Source of the DNA: an uncultured Pirellulaceae bacterium
GTDB lineage: Bacteria > Planctomycetota > Planctomycetia > Pirellulales > Pirellulaceae
Direction: 5' to 3'
DNA length: 64,000 nt
Assembly (NCBI GenBank): GCA_937929805.1
Contig: CALFUT010000004.1
Coordinates: 1 to 64,000 of the forward strand
Part shown: positions 3,717 to 29,796 of the stretch, in pieces
Position numbering within the stretch: position 1 is the stretch's first letter
Layout of the letters: the number at the start of each line of letters is the position of its first letter
Translations under genes and position numbers: made by a program
Notes under the pieces: generated by a model
What the model was told of the DNA's origin: nothing
Seen by the model: the letters and a program-made list of their open reading frames with translations, nothing else
The model's database searches: none

Positions 3717-3769
3717 TCTTTCGCCTCAAAAAAAATAGAAATGAATTCAGGAGAAGTAAGATTGAAAAA

Positions 3770-4906
3770 CTAGTTGTCCAGTGAGTTGATGTAACCATCA
3801 TCCCGCCCACCAATCGCCCACCAGACTTCTTGCGAAACCGAGTCGGGCACAAAGCGAACCGAGCCATCAACCATCGCTAGGTTCACGCCGCCATCGTGAT
3901 GACTGCTTGGAGTGACAACAAAGTTGCCCTCTGATTCTGCGGTGTCGTAGTGACCGATCAGCGAGTCGGGGGTCTGCACGTGCATGTAAGTAGGAGCCAC
4001 CAATGGCCACCCGCTGGACCAAGAACGACCGATGTATGCGGACTCTTTGACGTCCAAGTGTGTATTGGCCATTTGTGTAACGATCTCACTGAGAGATTCG
4101 AATTGTCGCAGGATGTGCATCGACAGAACTCGATCGTCCGTTCCGTTTCGAATTTCATCACCGCTGTTCCCTTGCTGGATTAGTCGTTCAGAAAGCAGCG
4201 CCGTGTTTGAAGTGCCATCAGCAAAGTCTTTCGTGGAGATCTTGCTGGTGTGCCACTCCACAGGTGCTGAAGGGTGGATCAACGGAATGGCTCCATTCGC
4301 AAGACCGGGAGTGGCTCGTTCTCCGGAGATCCCTGTGGCGTAAGATGGCCAACCAGCGTTTGCGGCATAACTTCCGGGTGCCGGATTCGCCGACCCAAGA
4401 AGCACGCTGTTTTCCTGATTTGGAGTGTCAGAGGGACAAAGGAACGCCGGAACCACCGTGTTGACTGCTTGGGCGTTCGCATGCGTGTCACTAACCCGGA
4501 AGTCATCACCGTCCCCGTTGCTGCTGCTTAGATCCAACGAGTCATAAACGTTCGTCTGTTCCATGTGCGGCAACAATGGCACCAACCAGCTATAAAGCCC
4601 TGACTCGAATTCGCCCGCAGCGGAAGCTTTTTCGTTTCCCGGTCCTATCTGATTGACGGGAAACTTTTGCAACCCAGATTCGTAATTGTGAATTGCCAAC
4701 GCAAGTTGCCGCACGTTGTTTGAGCAAGCCGTGCGTTGGGCGGCCGAGCGAACTGACTGAACTGCGGGCAGTAACATCCCGATCAAAATTCCAATGATCG
4801 CGATCACGACCAGTAGCTCTACTAGGGTGAACCCCGTGCGGGCTCGGTGGGTGAATGACGCCATCGTGAACGATCCTGTAAAGTTTTCGCTACGTTGCTG
4901 AAACAC
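3770..4906 (-). CDS. DUF1559 domain, type II pseudopilin-like protein
   Basis: A 378-residue protein of the large planctomycete DUF1559 family. A prepilin-type N-terminus (GFTLVELLVVIAIIGILIG, about residues 25-43) is preceded by a short basic leader, as in type II secretion and type IV pilus pseudopilins cleaved by prepilin peptidase. The rest is the DUF1559 domain; near the end is the conserved block H-x(n)-GGVNLAMVDGSVRF. The chosen start is a GTG with a perfect AGGAGG six bases upstream. An in-frame ATG 42 bases further in (4862-4864) also has an AGGA-like site and would give the more usual leader length. Genomes of this group carry many copies; the exact role is unknown. Confidence 0.8.
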   Translation of the reverse strand: MFQQRSENFTGSFTMASFTHRARTGFTLVELLVVIAIIGILIGMLLPAVQSVRSAAQRTACSNNVRQLALAIHNYESGLQKFPVNQIGPGNEKASAAGEFESGLYSWLVPLLPHMEQTNVYDSLDLSSSNGDGDDFRVSDTHANAQAVNTVVPAFLCPSDTPNQENSVLLGSANPAPGSYAANAGWPSYATGISGERATPGLANGAIPLIHPSAPVEWHTSKISTKDFADGTSNTALLSERLIQQGNSGDEIRNGTDDRVLSMHILRQFESLSEIVTQMANTHLDVKESAYIGRSWSSGWPLVAPTYMHVQTPDSLIGHYDTAESEGNFVVTPSSHHDGGVNLAMVDGSVRFVPDSVSQEVWWAIGGRDDGYINSLDN

Positions 4907-6448: not shown

Positions 6449-6488
6449 AGCCGAGGGAGTTTCAAAACAGCCGAGGGAGTTTCAAAAC
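6449..6488. repeat. Perfect 20-bp tandem duplication over a stop codon
   Basis: The 20-base unit AGCCGAGGGAGTTTCAAAAC occurs twice head to tail (6449-6468 and 6469-6488). The second copy includes the stop codon (6482-6484) and the last codon and a base of the minus-strand porin-like gene. The duplication therefore copied the gene's 3' end without altering its protein. Confidence 0.9.
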
Positions 6489-8779
6489 TTGTGTCGCAGT
6501 TCCATGCGAAAGCCGTGGATGTCTTCGTCATTTCGGCGGAATCCATACATTGCGTCGCTGCGGAAGATGATGGCATTGGTCAGCGGCAATTGGTAACGGA
6601 AGCCTACACCGTATTGGTCACCCTGAGCGTTTCGATTTGGATCGTCGCCCATGACTCCCAGCATTGAGGTTTCGACCACTAGTTGCTGTCCGAAGTCGCT
6701 GGCGATCAGGTTTAGCCCTAGCGACATTCCGAACGTGTCGTTGGCAGTTGCGTCGAGAGTCGGGAATCCCGTCATGCCGTCAGACTCGAACAAGAGCCCC
6801 GTGTTGCGAAGCACACCACCGGCTGCGGCAGCTCGTGCTGCTGACTGCGGACGGTCAAAACCTGCGAAGAAGTTCAGGTACGGAACGACCGTTGACGGCG
6901 CGCCGGTGATTAACGAGTTTTCAGACAACAACAGCACGCCGTCGGCAGTGTTTTCTACGACATCCGTCGACTGGCCTGCATTGACGATGATTCGAGTCGA
7001 ATTGGAAAGCAGGCGACCAAACCGCCGAGTGAATGCAATTCCAATATTGTGGTAGCTTCGATCGTCGGTTGTTCGATCTTCTAGAAATGCGTAGTCAATT
7101 TCCCAATAACCGTTGTTGGCTTCGATGAATGAAGCGATCCCGTAAATTTTTGCGGCGCTGTTGTCGCCCGGAAACGCGTCGCTATTCAGCTGATCGAAGC
7201 CTGCAAAGAATGTGATATCCATATTGGAGATATCAAACCGAGGACTGTTGCGAGCCGGAATCGTGGCTGCAAAACCAAGAATCGCATCTTCCATCCAAAT
7301 GCCGTTCTGGAACAGCAGCGGGATCTCCCCGATTGCAAATGGAAAATCGAACGGAAGCGTCTTCCCTACGAATCCACCTACGATCGCACCTAAATCTCCT
7401 TCGAAGTAGCCGAAATCGATTTGAGCATCGAACTCGTTGACAAATTCGTCGTCGTCGAACCGGTAACCGGTGTTAGTAACACCGTCATCCAATGGTGACA
7501 TGAATAGGTGAAACCGTTCGGTTCCTGTCAGTTTCAGGTCGAAGTCCAGATTCAATTCGCTTGCCGAAAGCGTCGTGCTGTTGCCGCCCAATTGATTCGA
7601 AGCGATCGCGGTCCGAAAGTCTCCGTACACAAGAAACTGAGGAGTAATGTTGTTGTGGAATCCAAGCAACGAAGAGCCCGGATTAAGTTGGCCAAGTTGG
7701 TACCATGGCCGCCCTAGCTCAATGAGTGGTCGCTGATTTGCATTGAGCGTCTTGCCCTCATAGATCTGCATCTCGGCCCACGGATCGACTGGCATATGAG
7801 GATCGATCGCATCAGGGGAAAAGTCGGACATGTACGTCTCTGATTTCCAAGCACGCTGATCAACAACGGGATTCTCCAATTTGTAGTGAGCGCCCAACTC
7901 AGGTTGAGCCGCCAGCACAAACGAGTCGGCACTCGCCAGTACGCCGGGGGCTTTTTGTTTTTTCTTGGCTGCTGATTTGGCAGCGCCAGCGTTCGTCTTG
8001 GAACCCTTGGTTTGTTTGCCGGGCAACGAAGGTAGCGAAGGGAGGTCTTGAGCCATCTTGCGAGTCGACGCGAACCGAAATGGAGAAGTTGGCTTTGAAG
8101 ACTCGGTCGTTTCGTCGTTTGGTAGATCGGTGGGGAAGTCATTCCAGTCCGCCCGCTGCAAGGAAGGTTCCGATGGCGCGGGTGGCGACAATTCGACGAT
8201 AGAGTCACCAGTTTGAGGCTTGCTGATTGCCGCGGCGTTCGTATTCGCGGGTGTAATTCGAGACGGATAAATCTCGACGGGTAACAAGGCTGGACCACGT
8301 TCCTTTACCGGACGCTCTAAGCTGCTCGGAGCAATCAATGGCATCGCGTTGTCAGCGGCTAAGTCCCTCGTGGGGATTTGCTCTGTCCGGCCACCACTGC
8401 CGATGCCTGCTGCTTTCGCCGCACGTGCTTGATGGAAAGCCTCCGGTGAAATCACCTCGTCCGTCTCATTCGAGTCGCCGGTTGGAAACGAACTGGGTTC
8501 CACTTGGGATTCAAATCTGGGCCCGGCCTTCACGCCACCGGTTGATTCGGATTTGGAAGTCCGTTCCATGGTCGATGGTTTTGGCGGCGCGGTTTCTTGA
8601 GCGTTTGGGCTCACGCCTTCAACGATTGACGATTCCCAAACGATTGCGGCTGGAGTTTGCGATGCTGCTTCTTGGCCCTGAGCCTCATCGCAAAACACTG
8701 CGCAAGTTACCGCGGCCATCAGCTGGGCAATTAAGCCGGCTGACATCAGCGTGGTTCGAAATGTAAAAAGCGAGATCAT
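6482..8779 (-). CDS. Outer-membrane beta-barrel (porin-like) protein
   Basis: A 765-residue protein. Residues 1-36 are a long signal peptide; about 37-290 is a Pro/Ser/Thr/Lys-rich low-complexity linker; from about 330 to the end are alternating amphipathic beta-strands with many aromatic residues and acidic turns. The last residue is Phe (…LRHKF), the classical signature for BAM-dependent outer-membrane insertion. The 23-bp gap to the upstream pentaheme cytochrome gene on the same strand argues for co-transcription. Together they could form a porin-cytochrome pair carrying electrons across the outer membrane, but no MtrB-type motif was seen, so this is inference. A general porin is the plain alternative. 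Confidence 0.65.
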   Translation of the reverse strand: MISLFTFRTTLMSAGLIAQLMAAVTCAVFCDEAQGQEAASQTPAAIVWESSIVEGVSPNAQETAPPKPSTMERTSKSESTGGVKAGPRFESQVEPSSFPTGDSNETDEVISPEAFHQARAAKAAGIGSGGRTEQIPTRDLAADNAMPLIAPSSLERPVKERGPALLPVEIYPSRITPANTNAAAISKPQTGDSIVELSPPAPSEPSLQRADWNDFPTDLPNDETTESSKPTSPFRFASTRKMAQDLPSLPSLPGKQTKGSKTNAGAAKSAAKKKQKAPGVLASADSFVLAAQPELGAHYKLENPVVDQRAWKSETYMSDFSPDAIDPHMPVDPWAEMQIYEGKTLNANQRPLIELGRPWYQLGQLNPGSSLLGFHNNITPQFLVYGDFRTAIASNQLGGNSTTLSASELNLDFDLKLTGTERFHLFMSPLDDGVTNTGYRFDDDEFVNEFDAQIDFGYFEGDLGAIVGGFVGKTLPFDFPFAIGEIPLLFQNGIWMEDAILGFAATIPARNSPRFDISNMDITFFAGFDQLNSDAFPGDNSAAKIYGIASFIEANNGYWEIDYAFLEDRTTDDRSYHNIGIAFTRRFGRLLSNSTRIIVNAGQSTDVVENTADGVLLLSENSLITGAPSTVVPYLNFFAGFDRPQSAARAAAAGGVLRNTGLLFESDGMTGFPTLDATANDTFGMSLGLNLIASDFGQQLVVETSMLGVMGDDPNRNAQGDQYGVGFRYQLPLTNAIIFRSDAMYGFRRNDEDIHGFRMELRHKF

Positions 8780-8802
8780 TGGAAGTTTGATAGAGCGCCG
8801 GA

Positions 8803-11247
8803 TCAGTGGACCTCAAAGGTGACCGTTTGAACATGGAAGTCCGCAATCCACTCGTTCATCATCCGCTCCATTTCGGGCGTCGAGTCACAGAATCGCATGA
8901 AGTAGATCGGTTCGGCTCGGCTACGCATGCGGACCGACATGCGGTACACGCCAGGTTCGTTCATTAGTCGCGATGGAACGACAAACTTTGCGTTGCGTGA
9001 CCCGAGAGCCGGGATCGAGTGACCTTCCATCCGAATGAATGGAGGGTGGTTGAGAACGGTGACCGGCTGCGCAGGAGGTCTTAGGAATGGCAGTTGGTCA
9101 AAGTCGATATTGATCGGCAAATACATTTCCCGATCGGTTCCTTTGACGTTGGTGGTCAAGAATTTCGTTTGCAAGTTGAACAGCTGGGTGTCGAAGGGAA
9201 CCTTTCGGTCCAGCACATCCAGCGAGTGGTTGTCGGCCAAGTCGCCGTTGGAGTCGACGTACCCGGTTTCCCAGATTCGCTGACCGCTTGGGCCAATGAG
9301 CACGACGTTCATCCATAATTGAGGTTGAGCCCCGAGTGAACCACTGGGCATGTTGTGGCCAGAATTGGTGTTGGTCAGGCAGTAACGGAATTTAAGGGGT
9401 TGCCCAAGCGTCGGGGTTTCGTGAAAGAAGGGGCCATCAAGTTTGGATCCGTTTTCCAAAACTTGGCGTCGCAGATCTTTCTTGTATTCCAGTTTCTTTA
9501 GGTTGGCGTCCACGATTTCACGTGCGTCGGCGCGGTCGTCGGCGTCTTCCCAAACCGGTGGAAAGTGTGTGTGGAACCGGCCTTCGTCGACCGCTTTTTC
9601 GAATTCTTCGGTGCCCCAGCCGCTTCGCCAATCGAATTGCAACCACTCGTTTACCGTCCACTTCGTTTTCTTCAGCGTGTGTGGAAAGATGCCTGGGTGA
9701 GCAATTGAATAACCCGGTCCGTAGAACGCGTGGTTAGAGTGTTTTCTTTCTGCATTGACGACTTTGTCGTTAACGACAGCCGCCGGGCCGATGGAGTATC
9801 CGCCATCAACGCCTGGTACTTTTCCCATGTGACAATCCTGACACGAGACTCCTTCACGGCAGGCGGGCGAGGCTCGATACTGATCCCATACAACCTCCAG
9901 TTTGATGCCTGGTTGCACGGCCACCTGATGGCATGACATGCAAAACGTTGACTCGCTCAATTCATCAAACTGAATGGCTCGGCGATGCATCAATTGACCT
10001 TGCTTCTTGTCATTCGGGTCGTTGGTGATTTTGAAGAAGTCTTTGTACTTGTTCGCGATTGCTCCACCGGTTCCGTCCGAAGCACCGTAGACAGGGTCAT
10101 GCAAACCGCCCGGTTCGATGCGTCGTTCGCCGTTGGTCTTCGTGTACGGAGTTTTGACGCGATGGCAAGCAACGCATGTGACTCCCTCACGGAACACTTC
10201 AGGCCCGTCCCAGATCGGTTGATCTCGCCGCAGTCCCATCGTAGTGGCAACCGGCGCGTGGCAACGCAGGCAGAAGTAGCCCAGCGTTCCCTGCGCAAGC
10301 ATGTTGATTTTGTTTTCGAACTTGTGGAACATCGGCGAAATTGACGCGTAGGCGTGGCTTGAGCTGGCCCATTCCTCGTACAGTTGTTTGTGGCAGGTCG
10401 CGCAGTCTCGGGCGGATGGAAAAGCCGATCGCGAATAGATTTCTAAGTGAGGGTCACTGTCTGAGTTCTTTCCCGCCGCTTTCTTGTTGGCTTGGAACTG
10501 GTTCAAATCAGATTTCGTTTTGCTGGGCGAATGCGGGTTAGGCATGGCGGCCAACCTGTTTTGGGGTGGCGCCGAGTGCATCGCCTGAACGGCTTCAACC
10601 GGTACATTGGCGGAAGCTTGGGCAACGAGTTGGCGCGGTAGACGCTCTCGGGCGGGGACGACCTGCGACAGGTCCAGTCCGGGCAGTTCGCTGGTGCACA
10701 TCGGTGGCAGTTCCCGCAGTGTGGCCTGGTCTTCGGCCGATAGTTGACTGATCGTCTGAGCAGTCACTTGGTTGGAGGCGGGACTTGCCGTTGGAATTTT
10801 GGCGATGGAGTCAGCGAACGCTTTGGATTGCACCAGTTCTTTGATTGCTCCCTCGCGACCGACCGGATGCAACGGATATCGGCCAGCTCTTTTCAGCAGG
10901 CTATGATTTGAAGCAACAGAATTAGGTGCGGCTTGGTTGCCAGCAGCGGTTGCTTGCATCGGAGGCAACGGCGTGACGTAAGCAACTTGTTTGATTTCGG
11001 CTGGGGGCTGACGCGGATCGCTCGGACGCTCAGGAGCCGGGATCAATGGCTGTGCTTTGATTGCGACGGCGGGCGAAGGCGTCGATCGCTGGTAATGGGG
11101 CTCCGTCAGCGGTACGGCCGCAGATTCGTCGAGATTTACCGCGTTTTCAGTGCCACCGTCCCGTGTAGGCGCATTCAGTGCCATCACGGCAACACCAGCA
11201 GCAATAAGAACTGCTGCGATTCTGGCACGGATACTCAACGCAATCAA
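8803..11247 (-). CDS. Pentaheme cytochrome c (cytochrome c554-like)
   Basis: An 814-residue exported cytochrome. Residues 8-26 form an N-terminal hydrophobic signal/anchor; about 30-270 is a Pro/Ala/Gln-rich low-complexity region. Five CxxCH heme-attachment motifs follow: CATCH (282), CLRCH (326), CVACH (358), CMSCH (436) and CQDCH (469). The spacing and the region around them resemble the cytochrome c554 / multiheme c family. Residues about 480-814 are a heme-free C-terminal domain. Upstream of the first heme is a planctomycete-type long N-terminal extension. It is first in a likely two-gene operon with the beta-barrel protein, and divergent from rpmJ. Partners and terminal acceptor are unknown. 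Confidence 0.75.
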   Translation of the reverse strand: MIALSIRARIAAVLIAAGVAVMALNAPTRDGGTENAVNLDESAAVPLTEPHYQRSTPSPAVAIKAQPLIPAPERPSDPRQPPAEIKQVAYVTPLPPMQATAAGNQAAPNSVASNHSLLKRAGRYPLHPVGREGAIKELVQSKAFADSIAKIPTASPASNQVTAQTISQLSAEDQATLRELPPMCTSELPGLDLSQVVPARERLPRQLVAQASANVPVEAVQAMHSAPPQNRLAAMPNPHSPSKTKSDLNQFQANKKAAGKNSDSDPHLEIYSRSAFPSARDCATCHKQLYEEWASSSHAYASISPMFHKFENKINMLAQGTLGYFCLRCHAPVATTMGLRRDQPIWDGPEVFREGVTCVACHRVKTPYTKTNGERRIEPGGLHDPVYGASDGTGGAIANKYKDFFKITNDPNDKKQGQLMHRRAIQFDELSESTFCMSCHQVAVQPGIKLEVVWDQYRASPACREGVSCQDCHMGKVPGVDGGYSIGPAAVVNDKVVNAERKHSNHAFYGPGYSIAHPGIFPHTLKKTKWTVNEWLQFDWRSGWGTEEFEKAVDEGRFHTHFPPVWEDADDRADAREIVDANLKKLEYKKDLRRQVLENGSKLDGPFFHETPTLGQPLKFRYCLTNTNSGHNMPSGSLGAQPQLWMNVVLIGPSGQRIWETGYVDSNGDLADNHSLDVLDRKVPFDTQLFNLQTKFLTTNVKGTDREMYLPINIDFDQLPFLRPPAQPVTVLNHPPFIRMEGHSIPALGSRNAKFVVPSRLMNEPGVYRMSVRMRSRAEPIYFMRFCDSTPEMERMMNEWIADFHVQTVTFEVH

Positions 11248-16511: not shown

Positions 16512-16523
16512 GGCTCGAGAATC

Positions 16524-17360
16524 ATGGCATTCAATTCTTCGCCGGATTTTCGGCCAACATGTGTCACGACGTTCATTCGTAGCTTCGACAGCGGTGCGGG
16601 GACTCTGCTAGTGGAGACCGATGCTGGCAGAGCGTACATCAAAGCTAAGGGAAACCCCGGTGGGCCGCATGTGCTGGCATGTGAATACGTCGGAACTCGT
16701 CTTGCAACTCTACTCGGCCTTCCCACGTTTGACTACGCGTTGATACAAGTAGATGAAATCGACGAATTGCCGTTTGCAAATGGTAAGGATTTCGCCGAAC
16801 CGGGCACCGCGTTTGCGGCTCGTTCAGAGACCGGCACGACGTGGGGCCAAGATAAACGACTCTTGGGCAGACTGGGTAATGTCGACGAGGTGTCCCGTTT
16901 GGTGGTTTTTGACACATGGGTCCTGAATTCCGACAGATATGATCCTAACGGTTCCCGCATCAATTTGGACAACGTATTTTTTAGTAGCGAATCGAGTGGT
17001 TTTGAGGTCGAATTACGAATAATGGATCATACTCATTGCTTTACAAACGGCCGAGATTTGACCGCACGAGTCAAGCAGATTGGGATAGTAAAGGACGAGG
17101 CCATTTATGGGCTCTTTCCTGAGTTCAAACCACTGCTTGATCGCGAAGTTGTGTGTGCGACGTGCGAGCAACTTACAAACCTTAGCGTCGATGATGTTGG
17201 CGAAATTGTTCATTCGATCCCAAGAGACTGGTCGGTCGGAAAACCTGCACGGGATGCATTGCAGGAGTTAATTGTCCGACGTGCGGAGTACGTCGCGGAA
17301 ACTATTGAGGAAAGTCTTTTTGGCCCAATACAAGGAGACTTGTTCCAGACAAGTGATTAG
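16524..17360 (+). CDS. HipA_2-like protein kinase
   Basis: 278 residues, resembling the HipA-like kinase family (HipA_2). Lys40 in AYIKAKGN could be the ATP-binding lysine. The segment FDTWVLNSDRYDPN (129-142) has the catalytic-loop pattern N-x-DR-x3-N of HipA kinases (Asp130, Asn135, Asp137, Arg138), and Asp168 in IMDHTHCF is placed like the Mg-binding Asp of the DFG-equivalent. HipA toxins phosphorylate glutamyl-tRNA synthetase, but the shorter HipA_2 proteins have no established target. There is no HipB-type helix-turn-helix partner. The gene is directly followed (2 bp) by a DUF3037 gene, a pairing known from many genomes. Weak ribosome site; translational coupling is likely. Confidence 0.7.
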   Translation: MAFNSSPDFRPTCVTTFIRSFDSGAGTLLVETDAGRAYIKAKGNPGGPHVLACEYVGTRLATLLGLPTFDYALIQVDEIDELPFANGKDFAEPGTAFAARSETGTTWGQDKRLLGRLGNVDEVSRLVVFDTWVLNSDRYDPNGSRINLDNVFFSSESSGFEVELRIMDHTHCFTNGRDLTARVKQIGIVKDEAIYGLFPEFKPLLDREVVCATCEQLTNLSVDDVGEIVHSIPRDWSVGKPARDALQELIVRRAEYVAETIEESLFGPIQGDLFQTSD

Positions 17361-17362
17361 CC

Positions 17363-18184
17363 ATGAAACCATCAAAAGGTTATTACAGCGTCATTCAGTA
17401 CATTCATGATTTGGCCCGAGCTGAGTCCGCCAATATCGGTGTCTTATTGTTCGTGCCTGAGCGTGGGTTCCTCGATGCGCGCGTTGTTCATGACAACGCT
17501 CGTGTGCGGCATGTATTTGGCGTTGCGGGTGACGATCTTAAACGACTCAACTCGTTCAAATCAAGTTTTAGCGAACGCGTGAAAGTGGAGCGGTACAACA
17601 TCGAAACCGTTGAGCACCTGAGTAAGTTTATTGATACGCGGGGGAACCAAATTCAGCTCACAGAGCCACGCTTTGCAAAAGTGACTAACTGTGAAGAATT
17701 GCTGGATGATCTTTTCAAGAAGCTTGTGGATGGGGAGGCGAAGAAGAAGAAGCTTAAGAAGTCGTTTACGAAAAACATCGAGAATCGGTTTGTGGCCGCA
17801 GGAATTCAGGAAAAGGTACAGCGAAACATTTCGATTCACGTTCCCGTCGTAGACCGTGACATTAGCGTTACGTTTGGCTTTCAAAACGGCGCTTTCAACT
17901 TGATGCAAGCCGTGAGCTTTCAAAGCGAATCCGTTGATCGGAATGCAAATGTAGCAATCCGACATTCGTTTGAGGGGCACGCTTTGCAAAGTCAAGCGGA
18001 CAACGAATACGGGGGATTAAAATACCGAGTTCTTGGGCGTTTCCAAAGCAACAAAGATGAATCAATTCCTGTAGTGCGTCGAGTGCTTCGAGAGAATGCT
18101 GTGCAACTCTACACCGAAAATGACCTCCCTGAACTAATCGACGAAATTCGTCGCACCGGAAAGTTTCTCGACGAGCATATCTGA
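17363..18184 (+). CDS. DUF3037 domain protein
   Basis: 273 residues. The N-terminus (YYSVIQYIHDLARAESANIG, then VLLFVPE) is the conserved start of DUF3037, in which a protein-family core of about 120 residues opens with Y-S-V-x-Q-Y and a later NxGV. The remaining ~150 residues (a Lys-rich stretch near 120-135 and a beta-rich C-terminus) go beyond the usual domain. DUF3037 genes commonly sit beside HipA-like kinases; their role is unknown, with antitoxin or kinase partner as a guess. It ends 28 bp before the convergent glycosylase gene, so the three-gene unit is closed. Confidence 0.7.
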   Translation: MKPSKGYYSVIQYIHDLARAESANIGVLLFVPERGFLDARVVHDNARVRHVFGVAGDDLKRLNSFKSSFSERVKVERYNIETVEHLSKFIDTRGNQIQLTEPRFAKVTNCEELLDDLFKKLVDGEAKKKKLKKSFTKNIENRFVAAGIQEKVQRNISIHVPVVDRDISVTFGFQNGAFNLMQAVSFQSESVDRNANVAIRHSFEGHALQSQADNEYGGLKYRVLGRFQSNKDESIPVVRRVLRENAVQLYTENDLPELIDEIRRTGKFLDEHI

Positions 18185-20604: not shown

Positions 20605-22092
20605 TCAAGGTTGTGTTTGAGCAAGCGGTTCAGTCTTTGCCGGTGAATCCGAGTGGGCCTTCGCGACAACTTTTGCCTGATCCTGCGCTTGACCCAGCAA
20701 GTATTCGACAGCAGGATCGCGTTGAGATCTTTTTGACTTGAGGTCGTTCAGCAGCTTGATTGCTTGATGGAAATTGTTCGCATCAAACTCGGCCTGCGCT
20801 CGCTGGTAAGCCGACAAATAATCCGGTGAAAACGTTGGAGTTCCCAAGGGTAGAGCTTGAAACAGCTCGATCGGCTGCTGAATCCCTTTGAGGACTGATC
20901 GGCCAATTTTTCGGACGGGTATTGCTCCTGAGATCCGCTGGGCGGTGGCGGCCGACACAAGCAATGGGCAGCCTATTTTCTGAGTCATCCCTTCAATTCG
21001 GCTGGCGACGTTGACGGTATTGCCTTGAGGACCGTACTTCAGCCTCGAACGACTGCCAGAATTGCCAACTTGAGCCATTCCGGTATGAACGCCGATTCCT
21101 ATATTGATCGTTTGCCCCAATCGGTTTTTCCAACGTTTGTTCAGATCGATCATTGCCTCGAGCATTTCAGTGGCACACAAGCAAGCAAACATTGGATGTT
21201 CAGTTTGCTCGATGGGGGCGTTCCAAAATGCGGCAAGTCCGTCGCCAAAGAAGTCGATGACGACACCATCGTGATCGGAAATAATCGCACAGAAGCAATC
21301 CATGACATCGGTCAGCAATTCGTAAGTCATCTTCGGGCCGATCTTCTCCGAGATCGATGAGAACTTTCGCAGGTCAACAAACATGACGGTCACTTCGGTC
21401 GTCTTGCCTTCCAAGAAGCGTGGGTCGTTTTGCAATTGACGCGAGACCTTCGGCGAGAACGTCTGATCAAGTAGGGCTCGGGATCTTGCGGCGCTAGCTT
21501 CTGCTTCCATTCGCGCCATGGCAGCTGAAATGGAGTCAGCAATGACTTGCACGAATTGAGCCTCTAAGAGTCGGATGCCCTGACGATTGTTTTGAGTGCC
21601 GGGGTTGCGAATGCCGTAGATGGCGGCAACAGAATTGCCTTCGTTATCAAACACAGGAGACACGACCGCACTGTGAAGCTGGCAACTGCGGAGCTCTGGA
21701 TGAAAGTTCTGGGTATTATGAAAGATCGTCGAACGAGTCGAGACTGCCAAGTCAACAAGATCTTCGCGATAGTCGATTGTAGAATCAGAGGATGTGGAGT
21801 GCTTGGCCGCGACTTCCCAACCGTCACATGAACGCAGCAAGATCAATCCGGCTTCCAGTCCGCCCGGATCACGAACCGCTCGCGCAGCCTGCTCGAAGAA
21901 CGCCTGACTTCCTGCAACCGATCGCTGTAAGTCTCCCAACGCGCGCAGCCACAGCGACAAGGTTCTGGCTCCCGGAGCGGGTCCTTGAGGCGTATTCATG
22001 TTGACGCCAGATGTCGGCTGTTGAGGCAGCGACGTCAGGGACGCGTCGAGCATCTTGATGTCCGGGCTTTGGGCCACGAAATATCCAGTCAA
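20605..22092 (-). CDS. GAF-domain class III nucleotide cyclase
   Basis: 495 residues. Residues about 55-195 look like a GAF sensor domain; about 232-420 is a class III adenylate/guanylate cyclase catalytic domain: FVDLRKFSSISE with metal-binding Asp240, DFFGDGLAAFW with Asp284, and GNTVNVASRIE with Asn361 and Arg365 for transition-state binding. The purine-selecting Asp of adenylate cyclases is replaced by Asn358, so cAMP versus cGMP is not certain. The C-terminus is a TPR-like helical pair and a low-complexity tail. It is divergent, across 194 bp, from the redox operon, whose third gene carries two cyclic-nucleotide-binding-like domains. Confidence 0.82.
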   Translation of the reverse strand: MTGYFVAQSPDIKMLDASLTSLPQQPTSGVNMNTPQGPAPGARTLSLWLRALGDLQRSVAGSQAFFEQAARAVRDPGGLEAGLILLRSCDGWEVAAKHSTSSDSTIDYREDLVDLAVSTRSTIFHNTQNFHPELRSCQLHSAVVSPVFDNEGNSVAAIYGIRNPGTQNNRQGIRLLEAQFVQVIADSISAAMARMEAEASAARSRALLDQTFSPKVSRQLQNDPRFLEGKTTEVTVMFVDLRKFSSISEKIGPKMTYELLTDVMDCFCAIISDHDGVVIDFFGDGLAAFWNAPIEQTEHPMFACLCATEMLEAMIDLNKRWKNRLGQTINIGIGVHTGMAQVGNSGSRSRLKYGPQGNTVNVASRIEGMTQKIGCPLLVSAATAQRISGAIPVRKIGRSVLKGIQQPIELFQALPLGTPTFSPDYLSAYQRAQAEFDANNFHQAIKLLNDLKSKRSQRDPAVEYLLGQAQDQAKVVAKAHSDSPAKTEPLAQTQP

Positions 22093-22286: not shown

Positions 22287-23669
22287 ATGGCGTTGTTGGA
22301 AAACAGTTTGTTGATCATAGGTATCGCCATGTGCGCGCTGGCTTTGCTGCCGCTTGCATTTTGGTCGGTCCAATCGTGGGCAGCACTACGCCACAACCAA
22401 TTGCAATTTCGTGAATCTCAGCGGTTGTTGCGTCAGCAGATTCTGAACGCGAATGTTCATCGCTCCCAAACGCCCGAAGCACCTCGCTCAGATGATACCC
22501 ATGCGGCAGCAAATCAGATAACTCCCAAAGCTGCCTCTCCAGTTCCACACCCGATCGTGGCGAACGAAGTTATTCCTGCGGAAGATACCGGTGCGGCTGT
22601 TTTGGCGGATGGAACGTGGAAGGGATTTCGCAAGTTTCGTGTACAGAAACTGGTCAAGGAAACGCTCACCTGTACATCCGTGTATCTTGAGCCGGTCGAC
22701 GAAAAACCAATCGCCCATTTCCAATCGGGGCAACATTTGACGTTGCGGTTTCAGATACCGGGTCAACCGAAGCCGGTCATCCGCTGCTACTCACTTTCAG
22801 ATGGCCCCGGAAAGCCCTGTTACCGGATCACCGTGAAGGCGATCGCGGCGGAGCAGCCCGGTGTGGTCAGCAACTTCATCAACGACCATTTACAGCAAGG
22901 CGACGTGATCGAGTCCAAAGCCCCTGCCGGTTCGTTCTGCTTGGATTTGAATGATTCACGGCCGATCGTCATGCTAGCCGGAGGGATCGGGGTCACTCCC
23001 ATGATTAGCATGATTGATTCGATTCTGAACCATTCGCCAAATCGACTTGCGATTCTTCTTTACGGTGTACGAGACAAGTCAGAATTGGCGTTCGTCGAAG
23101 AACTGCGTCGGACAAAGGAGACGAACAAGAATCTACACGTCGTCTATTGTGTGTCTGCCCCTAGTCCAGACGATGGTCAGGACAAGGGCTATCAAGTGGA
23201 AGGGCGGGTGTCGATTGAGCTAATCCAGCAATTGCTGCCCCACAACGACTGCCAGTTCTATCTGTGTGGTCCGTCGACGTTCATGCAGACGCTTGGCGAG
23301 GGATTGAAGGAGTGGGGGGTGCCTGATGATCACGTTCACTCAGAAGCGTTTGGTCCGTCATCGATCAGCAAGTCGCGTTCGGCGCCCACTGTCCCAGAGG
23401 TCGCCGGAGCGATTGAAGTTGCGTTTACCCAATCGAATCAGACAGTCAAATGGGATCCGAATTGCGAATCGTTATTGGAGTTGGCCGAATCGAACGGCAT
23501 CAACATCGATTTCGGTTGTCGCGCAGGAAGCTGTGGCACATGTGCAACCGAGTTGTTGGCAGGCGATGTTACGTATCCCGAAGATTTGCAGGTTGATTGC
23601 GAGCCGGGGCAATGTCTGACTTGTGTGGCGCGTCCTGTCGGGTCAATCAAACTAGGAACCCTACCATGA
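22287..23669 (+). CDS. Membrane-anchored FAD/2Fe-2S oxidoreductase
   Basis: 460 residues. One N-terminal transmembrane helix (about 8-28) is followed by a flavodoxin-reductase-like core: FAD motif RCYSLSDGP (near 165), NAD(P)-binding GGIGVTP (near 231), and CGP (near 326). A C-terminal plant-type 2Fe-2S domain has CRAGSCGTC (near 411) and a final CLTC. The domain order FAD-NAD-2Fe-2S is that of phthalate dioxygenase reductase and of Hcr. It would pass electrons from NAD(P)H, via flavin and iron-sulfur, to the other proteins of this operon. Its stop overlaps the next start (ATGA at 23666). Confidence 0.85.
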   Translation: MALLENSLLIIGIAMCALALLPLAFWSVQSWAALRHNQLQFRESQRLLRQQILNANVHRSQTPEAPRSDDTHAAANQITPKAASPVPHPIVANEVIPAEDTGAAVLADGTWKGFRKFRVQKLVKETLTCTSVYLEPVDEKPIAHFQSGQHLTLRFQIPGQPKPVIRCYSLSDGPGKPCYRITVKAIAAEQPGVVSNFINDHLQQGDVIESKAPAGSFCLDLNDSRPIVMLAGGIGVTPMISMIDSILNHSPNRLAILLYGVRDKSELAFVEELRRTKETNKNLHVVYCVSAPSPDDGQDKGYQVEGRVSIELIQQLLPHNDCQFYLCGPSTFMQTLGEGLKEWGVPDDHVHSEAFGPSSISKSRSAPTVPEVAGAIEVAFTQSNQTVKWDPNCESLLELAESNGINIDFGCRAGSCGTCATELLAGDVTYPEDLQVDCEPGQCLTCVARPVGSIKLGTLP

Positions 23670-24661
23670 ACCTTGTCAAAACAGGATTGTCGGGAGTCGG
23701 TATCACGTTGCTGGTGTTCTCTCTGGCGTCAGGGCAACCGCCTCAATGTGACCCGTCCAAAGTCAACACGGCAGAGACTTGCGCCAAGTGTCACTCGAAC
23801 GAAGTCCAGACTTGGAAACAGACGCCGCATTTCCAAACTTTCGAGCAACTCAGTCGAAACCCGGAAGCGAAACAAATTTGCAGCAACCTTGGCTTGAGGT
23901 CCGTCAAACGTAGCGATGTGTGCATCGATTGCCACTTTACAACGAAGGAAATAGACGGCCGTGTCAAAGCGATCGCTGGAGTTTCTTGCGAGTCGTGCCA
24001 TGGAGCTTCTGTTGATTGGATTTCGATTCACAACGATTACGGCGGGCCAATGGCGACCAAAGAAGACGAAACACCCGAGCACCGCGCGGCGCGGCTGGAC
24101 GAGTGTACTTCGCTGGGCATGAGGAACACTCGTGATTTGTACCTGATCGCGAGCAGTTGTTACCAATGCCATACCGTGCCTAATGAACGGTTGGTTAATG
24201 TTGGTGGCCACAATGCGGGCAGCGAAGATTTCGAACTAGTTCGCTGGTCACAGGGGATGGTGCGACACAACTTCCTGCGAACCGAGGGTGAGTACAACGC
24301 TGAATCAGATTCGAGCCGGTTGCGAGTGATGTACGTTGTCGGCTTGATTGCGGATTTGGAGTTCAGCACCCGCGCGACAGCCAACGCAACCGAAAAATCA
24401 AATTACGGATTGAAGGTCGCCAATCGAGCTGCCAAGGCCGCAGTGAAGCTATACGAAGTCCAACAACGAATTGATAACTCATTCGTGCAGTCGGCGCTTG
24501 AGTCGTTTGCGGGAGCAGAGTTGCGAGTTAACAATCGTGCGTCGTTGTTGGTCATTGCCGATCAAATTCAGGTCGCCGGTCGTCGGTTCGCGATGTCGTC
24601 TGACGGAAGTGAACTGGCTGCCATGGATGAACTTTTACCGGACCCAAGCACGTACAAATAG
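23666..24661 (+). CDS. Tetraheme cytochrome c554-like protein
   Basis: 331 residues from the ATG overlapping the upstream stop; the longer open frame starting 69 bp earlier would bury the signal peptide. Signal sequence LVKTGLSGVGITLLVFSL, then four CxxCH motifs: CAKCH, CIDCH, CESCH and CYQCH, all before residue about 180. The rest is heme-free and helical. It resembles the cytochrome c554 family and would sit in the periplasm or paryphoplasm next to the anchored reductase. It is translationally coupled to the reductase. Confidence 0.82.
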   Translation: MNLVKTGLSGVGITLLVFSLASGQPPQCDPSKVNTAETCAKCHSNEVQTWKQTPHFQTFEQLSRNPEAKQICSNLGLRSVKRSDVCIDCHFTTKEIDGRVKAIAGVSCESCHGASVDWISIHNDYGGPMATKEDETPEHRAARLDECTSLGMRNTRDLYLIASSCYQCHTVPNERLVNVGGHNAGSEDFELVRWSQGMVRHNFLRTEGEYNAESDSSRLRVMYVVGLIADLEFSTRATANATEKSNYGLKVANRAAKAAVKLYEVQQRIDNSFVQSALESFAGAELRVNNRASLLVIADQIQVAGRRFAMSSDGSELAAMDELLPDPSTYK

Positions 24662-24710: not shown

Positions 24711-26507
24711 ATGGCCAAACCCGGTGAGCATTCACGTGAAGGCTCACGAAGTTCGACGACAATGCAAGGATGCATTCGCTTGAGTAAACAGCTTCAGACA
24801 ATTCGACGTCCTGCCCGATGGGATGAACCGCTTGATGCTCAAATGGATGAGCCGTGCGTTCAATCGTTGTTGACGACCGAACCATTTGCGTCGATGGATG
24901 CGGCGAAGTTTCCACAACGGAGTCCGCTTGCGGGGATTCTGCAGAACGACTGTCGCATCCTTGATCTCCAGCGTGGTGACATCATCGTTCGCGAAGGCGA
25001 CTACGGGAGTAGTGCGTTTTTGATTCTTGCGGGCGAGGCGATTGTTTCGTTGCAATCGTTGCCGCCTCAGTTGCTGGGCCGCCAAGGCAAACCCAAGCAC
25101 AGCTGGACCCGCGCGATCGCAAAGCTTTTGGGCAATTCAAAACACGCCGAAGTTCGTGACTATAGCGCGACCAGTGATTCGGCGGAAATTGGGGCTCGTG
25201 TAACCGGCGAAGGGCAGCAGGTTTTTTTGCACGATATCCCACGCGTGATTCCACCGGGCAAGTCGGTGACGCTAACCGAAGGCGAAGTTTTTGGCGAGCT
25301 TTCAGCGCTGACGCGAACGCCGCGATCGGCCACCGTCGTGGCAGGCTCGGAGATGAAGGTGTTGGAAATTCGCTGGCAAGGGTTTCGCGATTTGATGAAG
25401 TCGGATCCAACGCTTCGCCAGCACGTGGATCAACTTTATCGCCAAAACAGCTTGCAGGCTCATCTTCGCGAGACGGAAATTCTGGCGGACCTGTCAACCG
25501 AATCGATTACCTCGGTTGCGGCGACAACACAATTGGAAACCTTCGGGCAATTTCAATGGAACCATGATTTTGGCAAGAACCAGAAAGAAGATATTGGTCG
25601 GAGAATTTTGGGCGAGCCACTCATTGCCGAACAAGGACAGCCATTGGATGGTTTGATCCTGATTCGAAACGGTTTTGCGCGGCTAAGTCGACAGCATGGC
25701 GATGGTCATCAAACAATTGCTTATTTGGGCAAGGGCCAAGCGTTTGGTTTACGTGAGCTTGCCCATAACTGGAAAACCGGTCAGCAACGCCCGGCCATGT
25801 TAAGCTTGCGAGCAGTCGGCTATGTGGATGTCTTGAAGATTCCGGTGGCGACGGTCGAACAACTGATCCTGCCCGCAGTGCCATTTAAGAAGTTGCCGCC
25901 TGAGTTGCCGGCTCTCGTTTCTGAAGGCCAGCAACCGAAAAACACTCGCAGGATGGTGCAACGCGAGCAAAGCATGGATCAAGGCTTGCTGGAGTTTCTG
26001 GTCGAGCAACGATTCATCAATGGCACTCAGACCATGATGATCGATTTGGACCGATGCACTCGATGCGATGATTGCGTTCGAGCCTGTGCGGCGACGCATG
26101 ACAACAACCCTCGCTTCATTCGGCATGGAAAGCAGCACGAAAATTGGATGATCGCCAATGCGTGTATGCACTGTTTGGACCCAGTGTGCATGATCGGCTG
26201 CCCGACGGGAGCGATTTCACGTGACGCGGAATCAGGAAGTGTGACGATTAATGATCCGACGTGTATCGGATGTGGAACTTGTTCGAATAGCTGCCCGTAT
26301 TCCAACATTCAGATGGTCACCATCAACGACCGAAAGGGGCTGCCGATTCTGGAACAAACATCAGGAAACCCCATCCAAAAAGCAACCAAGTGTGACCTGT
26401 GTGCCAGCACAAACCACGGTCCGGCTTGCCAGTCGGCGTGTCCTCATGATGCACTCGTTCGAATCGACATGACCTCGCCCGGCGCGGTGACCAACTGGAC
26501 CAAGTAG
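24711..26507 (+). CDS. Double cyclic-nucleotide-binding / 4Fe-4S ferredoxin fusion
   Basis: About 598 residues from ATG 24711; TTG 24699 and ATG 24762 are alternatives with no decisive ribosome site. Two cNMP-binding (CRP/cap-like) domains: the first (about 65-225) has GDIIVREGDYGSSAFLILAGE and later GEVFGELSALTRTPRSATV, a good match to the phosphate-binding cassette; the second (about 270-400) is diverged. Then comes a DmsB/HybA-like ferredoxin domain with four Cys clusters: CTRCDDCVRAC, CMHCLDPVCMIGC, CIGCGTCSNSC and CDLCASTNHGPACQSAC. So electron transfer may be gated by cyclic nucleotide. Fusion of sensor and ferredoxin is the odd point here. Confidence 0.85.
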   Translation: MAKPGEHSREGSRSSTTMQGCIRLSKQLQTIRRPARWDEPLDAQMDEPCVQSLLTTEPFASMDAAKFPQRSPLAGILQNDCRILDLQRGDIIVREGDYGSSAFLILAGEAIVSLQSLPPQLLGRQGKPKHSWTRAIAKLLGNSKHAEVRDYSATSDSAEIGARVTGEGQQVFLHDIPRVIPPGKSVTLTEGEVFGELSALTRTPRSATVVAGSEMKVLEIRWQGFRDLMKSDPTLRQHVDQLYRQNSLQAHLRETEILADLSTESITSVAATTQLETFGQFQWNHDFGKNQKEDIGRRILGEPLIAEQGQPLDGLILIRNGFARLSRQHGDGHQTIAYLGKGQAFGLRELAHNWKTGQQRPAMLSLRAVGYVDVLKIPVATVEQLILPAVPFKKLPPELPALVSEGQQPKNTRRMVQREQSMDQGLLEFLVEQRFINGTQTMMIDLDRCTRCDDCVRACAATHDNNPRFIRHGKQHENWMIANACMHCLDPVCMIGCPTGAISRDAESGSVTINDPTCIGCGTCSNSCPYSNIQMVTINDRKGLPILEQTSGNPIQKATKCDLCASTNHGPACQSACPHDALVRIDMTSPGAVTNWTK

Positions 26508-26515: not shown

Positions 26516-27376
26516 ATGAAATCAGACGTGAACATCCCAACTTCGAATACGCCTCGGTCGAAGCTGCGCGGACGCCGCGTTCGCAACGTCGCGTTGATGA
26601 TTTTCGCGCTGATTACGATTGGGTCGTTGGTCGTATGGCAAAACCAGAACCTGATTCACTCGACTTTCACGACGGGCTACATCCTGCTGGGCAGCTTTCT
26701 GTTATTGACGGCTTTTAATATGCGCAAGCGGATCCCTTCGATTGCTCAGTTGGGTTCGGCGGCGTTCTGGATGCAAGTTCACATCTACGTGGGGCTTGCG
26801 ACGTTTGTCTTATTTGGTCTTCATGTTGGCTGGAAGATTCCAAACGGACAGTTCGAGCTTTTGCTGACCATGCTTTACTTGATCGTGGCCGTTAGTGGGG
26901 TTTACGGCCTTTATGTGACTCGAACGATTCCAAAAAAGTTGTCCGCGATCAACGATGAAGTCATCTACGAGAGCATTCCAAATTTTCGCGTGAAACTGGC
27001 TGCCGAAGCGCGGGGGTTGGTCTTGGAAGCCTGTCAGCATTCGGATGTGCTGGCTCGATTCTATCGCAATCGCTTGGCGGAGTACTTTGAACGACCTCGA
27101 TCGTTGGCGTATCTGGCCAATCCGAACGGGCGGTTGCGTCGCCAGTTGACCTCGGAGATCGATGATCTTGATCGCTACCTTTCAAGCGATCAACGTTCAC
27201 TCAGCCAGCAACTTAGCCTGATGGTTAAGAAGAAAGACGATCTCGATTATCATGCGGCTCAGCAAGGGCGTTTGAAGATCTGGCTGTTTGCACACATCGG
27301 ATTTACTTACAGCCTGCTACTACTTTCAATTTTTCACGGCGTGATGGCGCATGCGTTTGCCGGAGGCCTGCGATGA
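26516..27376 (+). CDS. Polytopic membrane protein, possible b-type cytochrome
   Basis: 286 residues with about five transmembrane helices: roughly 27-43, 51-66, 81-103, 114-133 and 258-280. Histidines in or at helix ends (MQVHIYVG, LFGLHVGW, LFAHIGF, SIFHGVMAHAF) come in pairs as heme-b ligands do in diheme quinol-oxidising membrane proteins. The soluble section between (about 135-250) is charged. Start ATG is 8 bp after the previous stop. Its 3' end overlaps the next gene by four bases. The likely job is to link the membrane quinone pool with the ferredoxin fusion and the cytochromes; that is inference. Confidence 0.6.
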   Translation: MKSDVNIPTSNTPRSKLRGRRVRNVALMIFALITIGSLVVWQNQNLIHSTFTTGYILLGSFLLLTAFNMRKRIPSIAQLGSAAFWMQVHIYVGLATFVLFGLHVGWKIPNGQFELLLTMLYLIVAVSGVYGLYVTRTIPKKLSAINDEVIYESIPNFRVKLAAEARGLVLEACQHSDVLARFYRNRLAEYFERPRSLAYLANPNGRLRRQLTSEIDDLDRYLSSDQRSLSQQLSLMVKKKDDLDYHAAQQGRLKIWLFAHIGFTYSLLLLSIFHGVMAHAFAGGLR

Positions 27377-29796
27377 TTCGCAAACTTGGCAAGGAAGCAC
27401 CAAAAACGAAAAACGATTACCACCGGCCTCATGACAAATGGCAAGATCAACCGCTGGGCTACGGTGGATCTGAGACGGGTGGAGCGACCCAGCGTGTTAG
27501 GAGCCTGCGTTCACGGCGAAGGATTTTCACGTTGGCCGTCACGGCGTTCACCGTTGGGGCGCTATTGATTCTTGGGACCTCCGAGTACAAGAACGATTTT
27601 TTAGCACCGGGTCCGTTGTGTTCCAGTCATGCCCAGATTTTGGCGGGGCAGGGTGCGGATCGATGTGCGGCATGTCATGGTGCGTCCGACAAAAGCTTGG
27701 CTGTTTGGTTAACGGACACGCTGACGGGAGGCCGGACGATTCCGGTCAGTCAGTCTGAGCTGTGCATGAAATGCCACGAAAATTCAATCTCGCCTGACTT
27801 CGCTTTGAATCCTCACAGCGTTGCCAGCAGCGAATTGAACAAGCGAACCGAGAAGTTCAAGCAAGCTTCGGTTACTTCCTCGAAATCAATGTTGGGGTCG
27901 TTCGGGGCGATGACTGGTGCTCATTCAGCGGCTCATGCCGAAATCGCTTGTAGCGCGTGTCATCGCGAGCATCATGGCTCGGCCAGTCTAACCGCAGTCA
28001 CGGATCAACAATGCCAGACCTGTCATACCCAATCGTTTGACAGTTTCGAAGGGAATCATCCCGAGTTCACGAATTGGCCTCAGCAGCGAAGATCGAAGAT
28101 CGCATTTGACCATTCGACTCACGCGATGAAATATTTTCCCGGCAAGTCAACCGAATTCAATTGCAATCAATGCCACGTGGATGGGCCACACGGAAACGTA
28201 AAGCTGCTCGCGTCGTTCGAGCAATCGTGCGCGGTGTGTCACGAACAGCAAATTCATCAGAGCGGGGAAGGTGGATTCGCAATTTTCAGTTTGCCTTCCA
28301 TCGACCCGGAAGCGATCGCTGATCTGAATCTGGACATTGGCGGTTGGCCTCTTGCGGCGACTGGCGATTTTGATGGTTCCATTCCGCCCGCGATGCGACT
28401 TTTGCTTCAAGCCGATCCAGAGGCTCGAAAAGTACTGGATGGTTGGCACCAAAAATTCGGCTCAAAGGTTGACTTTGCAGACGTCGATCCAGAGGCTGCC
28501 GGCGATGTCGAACGGGCGGTCGAGTTGGTTTGGGCGATTAAGCGATTGCTATACGAGCTGGCAACAGATGGCCAAGAAGCATTGCGAGTGCGATTGGGAG
28601 ACGCGTTGGGCGGCGATGTTTCGTTGGATCAGGTCATGTTGTTGGCCAGTCAGTTGGACAAAAGTGTGTTTCGAAACACCGTGCGACGTTGGCTGCCGAA
28701 CCTGCAAACCGAAATCGCTCAACACGACGCGGGTGGCTTAAGCCGATCGAATGGTGGAGCACAAGGGACAGATCACGTTGATCGGCTAGGTTCCGCGTTT
28801 CGCAAAGTTAGATTTTCGAAGCTCGTTCGGCAGGATGATGGGCTGTTGGTCGAAAATCCGCTCCGGAAATTGTTGTCGGGTGGTAGCTTTGCTGATGAAC
28901 GGACGGCGCAAGCTGGGCAAGAGTCGGCTGCTTCGTTGGATGATGCCGACTCAAGCCAATTGGCTCTCGATCAGCCGTCGACGCGACCTTCAAGTGGGCC
29001 TTCGCAAAAGAAGCAGTCGGTGAAGCAGTTGGAACTTCGAAAAGAAGCAGTGGGCAAAGTTCCGGCGGATCCCGATTTGTTGGCGGTGAACCCATTGGCA
29101 GGCGGAAGCTTGTCCGAGGACACGTTGTTGTCTTCCGATGATCTGTCGGGAGAACCATTGAGCGAGGAAACTGGACGCGGGAGGAAGCCGGAATCCAAAT
29201 CAACCGCTGCGACGTGGGAATCGCCCGGGGTGACTCGTGCCGGGTGGTATCGAGACGATGACCTGTTTCGAGTGTTCTACCGTCCCGGTGGTCATGAAGA
29301 TGCGTGTGTCAAAGCGTGGAGTGATCTGGTTTCGTCTGCTAAGGGTGCGAATGAGCAGCCAGAGTTGCAACCTTTATTTGAGCAACTATTGTCTGACCGA
29401 GGGATCGGCATGTGCGCGACTTGCCACACCGTAGACCGACAGCGGAATGCCTCGTTTGTGGTGAACTGGGGTCCCGAGTATCGCGATCCATCGATTGGAG
29501 CGTTCACAAAGTTTTCGCATCAGCCGCATACCTTGCAGCCTCATCTGCGAGACTGTTCAGCCTGTCACGACATGTCGCAGCCCGTGAGCAACAAGGACTC
29601 GTTCGTGAGTCACAATCCGCACGAGGTGGTCAGCAACTTTGCCCCAATCTCAAAGATGAACTGCGTCAGCTGTCATCGCAAGGGCAGTACCAGCAGCGGC
29701 TGCAGCCATTGCCACAGCTACCACGTTGGAGCAAACTCACTTGCCACCAGTGAAGACGATGGCCGTGAAGTTGAATCTGAAACGTCCGGCGACTGA
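27373..29796 (+). CDS. Decaheme cytochrome c
   Basis: 807 residues. A basic N-terminus is followed by one membrane helix (about 52-68). Ten CxxCH motifs: six before residue 300 (CAACH, CMKCH, CSACH, CQTCH, CNQCH, CAVCH) and four in the last 130 (CATCH, CSACH, CVSCH, CSHCH). A heme-free middle part (about 300-670) is acidic and low in complexity. It is the last gene of the operon and is coupled to the membrane protein by an ATGA overlap. It would be an exported multiheme electron conduit; whether its partner is a nitrogen oxide, sulfur compound or another carrier is unknown. Confidence 0.85.
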   Translation: MIRKLGKEAPKTKNDYHRPHDKWQDQPLGYGGSETGGATQRVRSLRSRRRIFTLAVTAFTVGALLILGTSEYKNDFLAPGPLCSSHAQILAGQGADRCAACHGASDKSLAVWLTDTLTGGRTIPVSQSELCMKCHENSISPDFALNPHSVASSELNKRTEKFKQASVTSSKSMLGSFGAMTGAHSAAHAEIACSACHREHHGSASLTAVTDQQCQTCHTQSFDSFEGNHPEFTNWPQQRRSKIAFDHSTHAMKYFPGKSTEFNCNQCHVDGPHGNVKLLASFEQSCAVCHEQQIHQSGEGGFAIFSLPSIDPEAIADLNLDIGGWPLAATGDFDGSIPPAMRLLLQADPEARKVLDGWHQKFGSKVDFADVDPEAAGDVERAVELVWAIKRLLYELATDGQEALRVRLGDALGGDVSLDQVMLLASQLDKSVFRNTVRRWLPNLQTEIAQHDAGGLSRSNGGAQGTDHVDRLGSAFRKVRFSKLVRQDDGLLVENPLRKLLSGGSFADERTAQAGQESAASLDDADSSQLALDQPSTRPSSGPSQKKQSVKQLELRKEAVGKVPADPDLLAVNPLAGGSLSEDTLLSSDDLSGEPLSEETGRGRKPESKSTAATWESPGVTRAGWYRDDDLFRVFYRPGGHEDACVKAWSDLVSSAKGANEQPELQPLFEQLLSDRGIGMCATCHTVDRQRNASFVVNWGPEYRDPSIGAFTKFSHQPHTLQPHLRDCSACHDMSQPVSNKDSFVSHNPHEVVSNFAPISKMNCVSCHRKGSTSSGCSHCHSYHVGANSLATSEDDGREVESETSGD

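Follow-up and report, generated by a model that had tools for sequence, protein, structure and literature searches.

To our knowledge, most descriptions of how extracellular electron transfer is controlled concern gene expression; in Shewanella, for example, control is exerted by cAMP-CRP through transcription. Among trans-envelope conduits, the closest described system is subgroup II of PCC4, which was proposed in 2017, in a bioinformatic study, to act as a conduit for extracellular electron transfer (PMC5566968). As far as that description goes, the hosts of this subgroup include Planctomycetes, the model carries electrons inwards from an extracellular donor, and similar sets of membrane protein and cytochromes without a porin gene were considered less likely to serve extracellular transfer (PMC5566968).

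The window reported here, meaning the whole 64,000-nucleotide stretch of DNA analysed, encodes two CNB domains and a ferredoxin in one polypeptide (Table 1), and the electron pathway predicted around this fusion, including the genes at 6482-11247, resembles the PCC4 trans-envelope conduit. Judged by gene content, motifs and the published description (PMC5566968), the two have in common periplasmic 4-, 5- and 10-haem cytochromes with a porin (location and porin being predictions in the window), a membrane protein that carries a WX3HX13H pair and an SGXXG motif, a PF13247 iron-sulphur gene upstream of that membrane protein (adjacent to it in the window), and a redox gene upstream of the tetraheme gene, which in the window is the FNR-type reductase. 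Unlike those of PCC4 subgroup II, the window genes do not form one cluster: the porin and pentaheme genes are a separate group 13.5 kb from the fusion. In the close relative G297, too, ~10.7 kb separate the pentaheme gene from the fusion on one contig, whereas other loci have it nearer. Because of the distance in the window, we call the arrangement PCC4-like. The window also differs from PCC4 as described in that its iron-sulphur subunit carries tandem CNBs, where the PCC4 gene is given as pfam13247 only (PMC5566968), and in that its iron-sulphur operon has a neighbouring cyclase gene. In word searches, 'cyclic', 'cNMP' and 'pfam00027' were absent from the main text of that paper, as were 'cyclic', 'cNMP' and 'Crp' from the searchable text of the Nitrospina genome paper (PMC3578206); among the titles and abstract openings of the literature matches listed, none described a CNB-ferredoxin fusion in a conduit.

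Our main reading, to which we give somewhat better than even odds (about 0.55), is that the fusion may serve, on the cytoplasmic side, as the iron-sulphur subunit of a PCC4-like conduit for extracellular electron transfer, and that a cyclic-nucleotide switch may be built into it. Shewanella cAMP-CRP likewise places electron export under a cyclic nucleotide, but it acts via gene expression, whereas the proposal here is an action on the electron carrier itself.

Table 1. Features of the window discussed in the text (positions are those of the window).
Feature	Position	Strand	Remarks
Predicted outer-membrane beta-barrel (porin)	6482..8779	-	partner of pentaheme
Pentaheme cytochrome	8803..11247	-	in other genomes adjoins operon
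GAF-class III nucleotide cyclase	20605..22092	-	divergent upstream of operon; base-recognition pair Asp/Gly
FAD/NAD(P)/[2Fe-2S] reductase, FNR type	22287..23669	+	N-terminal hydrophobic segment
Tetraheme c554-like cytochrome	23666..24661	+	hydrophobic signal-like N terminus; start by ORF inspection
CNB-CNB-ferredoxin fusion protein	24711..26507	+	open frame, 598 aa; start perhaps 24762
CNB1	24933..25460	+	residues ~75-250; Pfam and AlphaFold2; canonical cNMP site (predicted)
Phosphate-binding cassette of CNB1	25281..25328	+	residues 191-206 (GEVFGELSALTRTPRS)
CNB2	25473..25895	+	residues ~255-395; without canonical phosphate-binding residues
HydN/HycB-like ferredoxin domain	26028..26480	+	16 Cys for four [4Fe-4S] clusters
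Inner-membrane protein, predicted di-haem b	26516..27376	+	two WX3HX13H motifs, SGXXG
Decaheme c-type cytochrome	27373..29796	+	one N-terminal hydrophobic segment

An earlier note on this DNA had read the protein as two CRP-like cNMP-binding domains ahead of a DmsB/HybA-type ferredoxin. The architecture is borne out: Pfam assigned PF00027 to two stretches (protein E 1.5e-25) and, above cut-off, matched several models of 4Fe-4S diclusters, PF13247 included (35.8 bits against a cut-off of 26.2), and an AlphaFold2 model built on a 25-row alignment contains two CNB folds. The model has modest confidence (pLDDT 69.7, with an insert at ~114-183 inside CNB1 modelled with low confidence) and is silent on gating. 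The alternative start is the position at which the homologue L034 begins, and the tblastn match of L034 to the fusion starts at residue 8, before that position. The ferredoxin type did not hold up as well. NCBIfam models for HydN (63.5 bits) and AegA (62.9 bits) scored slightly higher than those for DmsB (56.0 bits) and HybA (51.1 bits), all of them far below their cut-offs, and the best PDB chain was a HycB-type subunit, which places the domain slightly nearer HydN/HycB and led us to reject a strict DmsB/HybA identity. All 16 cluster Cys residues are invariant in 25/25 homologues (alignment A1) and by number suffice for the four predicted clusters.

For the two N-terminal domains, Foldseek ranked the tandem CNBs of the PKA regulatory subunit and PKG highest (E ~1e-15), with TM values of only ~0.2/0.4, so that the domain arrangement is not closely matched. 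Unlike PKA and PKG, the fusion keeps a canonical site in CNB1 only, and a ferredoxin takes the place of the kinase as its output. CNB1 alone matched, about equally well, 2gau, a Crp/Fnr-family regulator (Z 14.0, rmsd 2.4, 126 aligned), and 3cl1, a cGMP-bound CNB of M. loti (Z 13.9, rmsd 3.2, 130 aligned). The CNB fold is common to the fusion and to CRP/FNR transcription factors, but the fusion, unlike these, joins two CNBs to a ferredoxin in one chain. A CRP-type transcription factor was ruled out, as Pfam found no DNA-binding domain and no C-terminal helix-turn-helix, the ferredoxin standing in that place.

A search for the same fusion elsewhere, as the earlier note had suggested, showed that it recurs in Planctomycetota and Nitrospinota. 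The former had matches at E <= 1e-30 in 52/294 genomes, some of which cover just CNB2 and the ferredoxin; 28 of the 52 genomes reached 269 bits or more, which we term close-type. Of 77 genomes from the phylum to which a Nitrospinaceae MAG belongs, 22 matched at E <= 1e-60, 18 of them over nearly the full length. Among plasmid records, 29 matched the fusion protein, 9 of these from Sphingobium, and none of 36 pattern matches in viral contigs was a relative. Taken by sequence, a CNB-ferredoxin fusion with a conserved predicted binding site is well supported. Four distant forms (L060, L062, L073 and L075) bear an extra N-terminal [2Fe-2S] (PF13510) and 4Fe-4S region, suggesting that several redox inputs have become attached to the CNB-ferredoxin module.

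The fate of the two nucleotide sites was followed in alignment A1, whose 25 rows omit three of the loci L033-L059, namely L051, which is truncated, and L058 and L059, which are divergent. G195, E196 and R205 of CNB1 are kept in 25/25 homologues, whereas the phosphate-binding Glu and Arg of CNB2 are both gone in 25/25: when the CNB1 and CNB2 cassettes are equated by our own alignment, L, F, A, I or M stands at position 347 (for Glu), and positions 362-364 (for Arg) are variable. The earlier note had named loss of these residues across homologues as a refutation of its sensing claim; CNB1 withstands this test and CNB2 does not, and the idea of both CNBs as canonical sensors was discarded. Retention in CNB1 together with loss in CNB2 makes one ligand site per chain likely, and by this alignment one site per chain in the close family is held under constraint while the second has decayed. 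Among close and distant forms together, a permissive motif scan found at least one GE...R cassette in 57/57 sequences from 57 loci, and on our reading of that scan 13/20 distant forms have the cassette in both CNBs.

It could be argued from the loss of the CNB2 site in all 25 homologues that the CNBs have given up nucleotide sensing and now serve as a structural scaffold, and that the neighbouring cyclase belongs to another circuit. CNB-fold proteins that bind other things or nothing do exist, the DNR sensor domain appears among the fold matches of the fusion, and a linked cyclase is missing in most lineages. We nevertheless regard this explanation as very unlikely: the Glu and Arg of CNB1 are invariant across two phyla while identity to the window protein drops to 34%, and cyclases of two subclades, as well as a cNMP-phosphodiesterase-like gene, adjoin such loci.

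The genes around the fusion supply the rest of the predicted pathway. The three window cytochromes carry 4, 10 and 5 CXXCH motifs, each with a hydrophobic N-terminal segment, and from this we infer a periplasmic location. In the membrane protein, WX3HX13H motifs lie at 85 and 256 and SGXXG at 127; among homologues above 80 bits, both WX3HX13H motifs are present in 38/38 and SGXXG in 28/38. Three segments of this protein passed a simple hydropathy scan, compared with the five transmembrane helices of the PCC4 description. CNB-ferredoxin, membrane protein and decaheme genes occur together in 25/27 close-type loci of Planctomycetota (L033-L059; the remaining two, L043 and L051, stop at a contig edge) and in 9/9 close-type loci of Nitrospinota (L149-L157). 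The tetraheme and FNR-type reductase genes usually accompany this trio, with the reductase last in gene order in Nitrospinota; four Planctomycetota loci from one genus (L045, L046, L048 and L049) have no FNR-type gene in the operon.

The pentaheme gene and the haemless protein encoded beside it bear on whether the pathway reaches the cell exterior. The latter had no Pfam match, and its C-terminal 435 residues were modelled as mostly beta barrel (pLDDT 78.4), with OprD-type, MOMP and AlgE barrels as best Foldseek matches at ~10% identity; we predict from this model that it is an outer-membrane porin. A cNMP-responsive ferredoxin that feeds a purely periplasmic redox chain, unlinked to the cell exterior, would fit the 13.5 kb between porin-pentaheme pair and fusion in the window, as well as three genomes in which the pentaheme gene is on the same contig ~1 Mb (G152) or ~4.7 Mb (G107) away or on another contig (G198); sets lacking a porin gene are, moreover, those deemed less likely for extracellular transfer in the PCC4 description (PMC5566968). 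We consider a purely periplasmic chain improbable, since the pentaheme gene and its adjoining porin homologue were present in the fetched stretch of 19/36 close-type loci of both phyla, several of which end at contig edges, and since a pentaheme gene was found in 26/28 Planctomycetota genomes with a close fusion versus 17/266 others, a comparison among genomes related by descent in which a Fisher value is no true probability. In plasmids, just 3 weak records matched the pentaheme protein. One locus, L050, has two successive pentaheme genes adjoining the operon (523-4712).

Under our main reading, electrons would enter or leave via NAD(P)H, through the flavoprotein, and/or via the quinone pool, and would pass along the four clusters of the ferredoxin, the haem b pair in the membrane protein, the cytochromes of the periplasm (10-, 4- and 5-heme) and the porin. 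The product of the sensor-cyclase, a cyclic nucleotide, would bind CNB1; its hinge helices would then move, the degenerate CNB2 would relay the motion, and the docking of the ferredoxin to the membrane protein would change in such a way that the conduit opens or closes. In PKA, PKG and HCN, ligand moves the CNB hinge helices, and by analogy the ligand would be expected to activate. Electron flow might run inwards, as in the PCC4 model, yet the reductase would also allow export from NAD(P)H. We infer binding and gating of the fusion by a cyclic nucleotide from gene sequences, and as a hypothesis gating has good circumstantial support: the fusion itself, its conserved CNB1 site, the conserved core and partner genes, and a repeated linkage to signalling genes.

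Nucleotide binding at CNB1 could also serve another end, namely to govern how the iron-sulphur subunit is assembled, stabilised or recruited to the membrane, and not the rate of flow. The conservation of the cassette fits this equally, and the hydropathy scan found no membrane segment in the fusion, so that docking could be what is regulated. The data fit docking and gating alike, and nothing direct counts against such control; we rate it as unlikely.

The source of the ligand in our main reading would be the cyclase encoded divergently upstream of the operon, across a gap of 194 bp. The earlier note had called it a GAF-cyclase; class III membership was confirmed by PF00211 (64.1 bits, cut-off 21.9), and the GAF match of 22.3 bits fell 0.1 below the Pfam cut-off of 22.4. 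The genome (4.2 Mb, 74 contigs) has two PF00211 matches, the window cyclase and one other. Such a divergent cyclase is present in 8/9 close-type loci of the window's class (the window, L033, L034, L041, L045, L046, L048 and L049), L044 being the only one without it; L033 and L034 were assigned to the class by their record titles. In 17 other Planctomycetota loci, of which several are truncated at contig ends, and in 14 Nitrospinota loci, the operon had no neighbouring cyclase of comparable score. The proposal that producer and sensor are encoded side by side therefore holds within this class and not in those loci, and universal linkage was ruled out: among close-type loci, linkage is confined to one class. 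A weak cyclase-like match (48.7 bits) lies downstream in L056, and matches also occur near the distant forms L074 and L076.

In a 53-row tree, the linked cyclases fall into two well-supported subclades, each with unlinked relatives. One is GAF-type, with L093 as sister; the other is FHA-type and groups four linked cyclases with L078, L094 and L104 (FHA by Pfam). As these four (L045, L046, L048 and L049) come from one genus, four of the eight linked cyclases are not independent. Two recruitments would be the simplest reading of this tree, and one early linkage followed by two or three losses could also account for it. The sister sequence L093 is encoded in the genome of L044 (G137), ~160 kb away on the same contig.

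At the base-recognition positions, Lys-Asp is the pair of adenylyl cyclases; in guanylyl cyclases Glu replaces the Lys, and the pair in Cya2 is Glu-Gly (PMC4215837). Asp and Gly stand there in 8/8 linked cyclases, a pair seen in 0 of 45 other Planctomycetota cyclases, of which 37 have Lys and 4 (L093, L078, L094 and L104) have Asp with Thr or Ser; these 45 are best-scoring, perhaps most canonical sequences, left from 57 loci after 12 were dropped (3 copies of linked cyclases, 8 loci read on the wrong strand and 1 that gave no translation). The best PDB match of the window cyclase, 2w01, which we take to be the guanylyl cyclase Cya2 of Synechocystis, has Glu and Gly at these positions in our alignment. 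Both enzymes thus combine an acidic residue with Gly; unlike Cya2, the linked cyclases use Asp, not Glu, and have GAF or, in relatives, FHA input domains. Because an acidic residue replaces the ATP-specifying Lys, as in guanylyl cyclases, the ligand may be cGMP. The Glu of guanylyl cyclases is at that position in 0/8 linked cyclases, all of which have Asp, so the Asp/Gly pair points to cGMP short of showing it.

A serious competitor, which we would set only a little below even, is that the linked cyclase yields cAMP (or cCMP/cUMP) and that cGMP is not the ligand. The base-recognition Asp differs from the Glu of known guanylyl cyclases, 2w01 was deposited under the name adenylate cyclase, and position 206 of CNB1 (T 11, S 9, V 4, A 1 of 25) is not diagnostic of ligand. 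What speaks against cAMP is the absence of the ATP-specifying Lys from every linked cyclase, when most of the comparison set, best-scoring and perhaps most canonical as it is, retains it, and the acidic residue and Gly of 2w01 if this is indeed Cya2.

The catalytic residues of the linked cyclases are intact with one exception: the two metal Asp and the transition-state Asn and Arg are all present in the window cyclase and in 6/7 of the others, while L041 is without the Asn, and an active cyclase with Ala at this position has been described (PMC4215837). At the level of genomes, a class III cyclase was found somewhere in 17/17 close-type Planctomycetota tested versus 68/107 others; a PF00211 match was absent from 2/18 Nitrospinota genomes (completeness not stated) that carry the fusion at full length, which, like the confinement of linkage to one class, counts against our main reading. 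A more ambitious proposal is that in at least two phyla a trans-envelope conduit is gated allosterically at the ferredoxin that feeds it, that the ligand is a cyclic nucleotide other than cAMP, probably cGMP or a further such species, and that in some lineages a dedicated neighbouring cyclase makes it. We advance this combination tentatively, with the odds somewhat against it.

Signalling genes also accompany distant forms of the fusion. Two of the nine Sphingobium plasmids were examined (L178 and L179), and both have a run of genes for FAD-CNB-CNB-ferredoxin, membrane protein, decaheme and metallophosphoesterase (L178 7858-13902; L179 7711-14062). The relative of the fusion comprises an FAD domain, a pair of cassette-bearing CNBs and a ferredoxin (Pfam, in one of the two plasmids); the membrane protein has the same WX3HX13H-type motifs as that of the window in both, and the decaheme has an FHA-like match below cut-off in one. 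The phosphoesterase is annotated CpdA in one record, and both copies are nearest SpdA and CpdA in NCBIfam, below cut-off. This run suggests that a second-messenger gene lies beside CNB-ferredoxin in unrelated bacteria as well, for breakdown there and for synthesis in the window. In L178, a 1329-aa protein with 10 CXXCH motifs is encoded nearby on the opposite strand. At L074, an FHA-cyclase-like gene that is degenerate at metal and base positions lies 33 bp ahead of the fusion. FHA or FHA-like matches recur across these loci, on cyclases or the decaheme (L045 4954-6717, L074 5864-6781, L178 11234-13033), which hints at a phosphothreonine input at CNB-ferredoxin loci as well.

If gating is true, Planctomycetota and Nitrospinota would be able to control the passage of electrons across their envelope quickly and post-translationally, with a redox counterpart of the cyclic-nucleotide-gated ion channel. 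Such gating would further offer a way into the study of PCC4 conduits and would assign a candidate role to the class III cyclases of these phyla.

Other parts of the window contain gene groups of separate interest. At 15090-18184, a run of three genes encodes a 473-aa protein that matched no Pfam model, a HipA-like kinase (PF20613) and a DUF3037 protein; in make-up it resembles a small cassette of the defence or toxin type. Two adjoining secreted-looking proteins are encoded at 1638-3716, one with a PEP-CTERM signal and the other with a dockerin match just below the Pfam cut-off.
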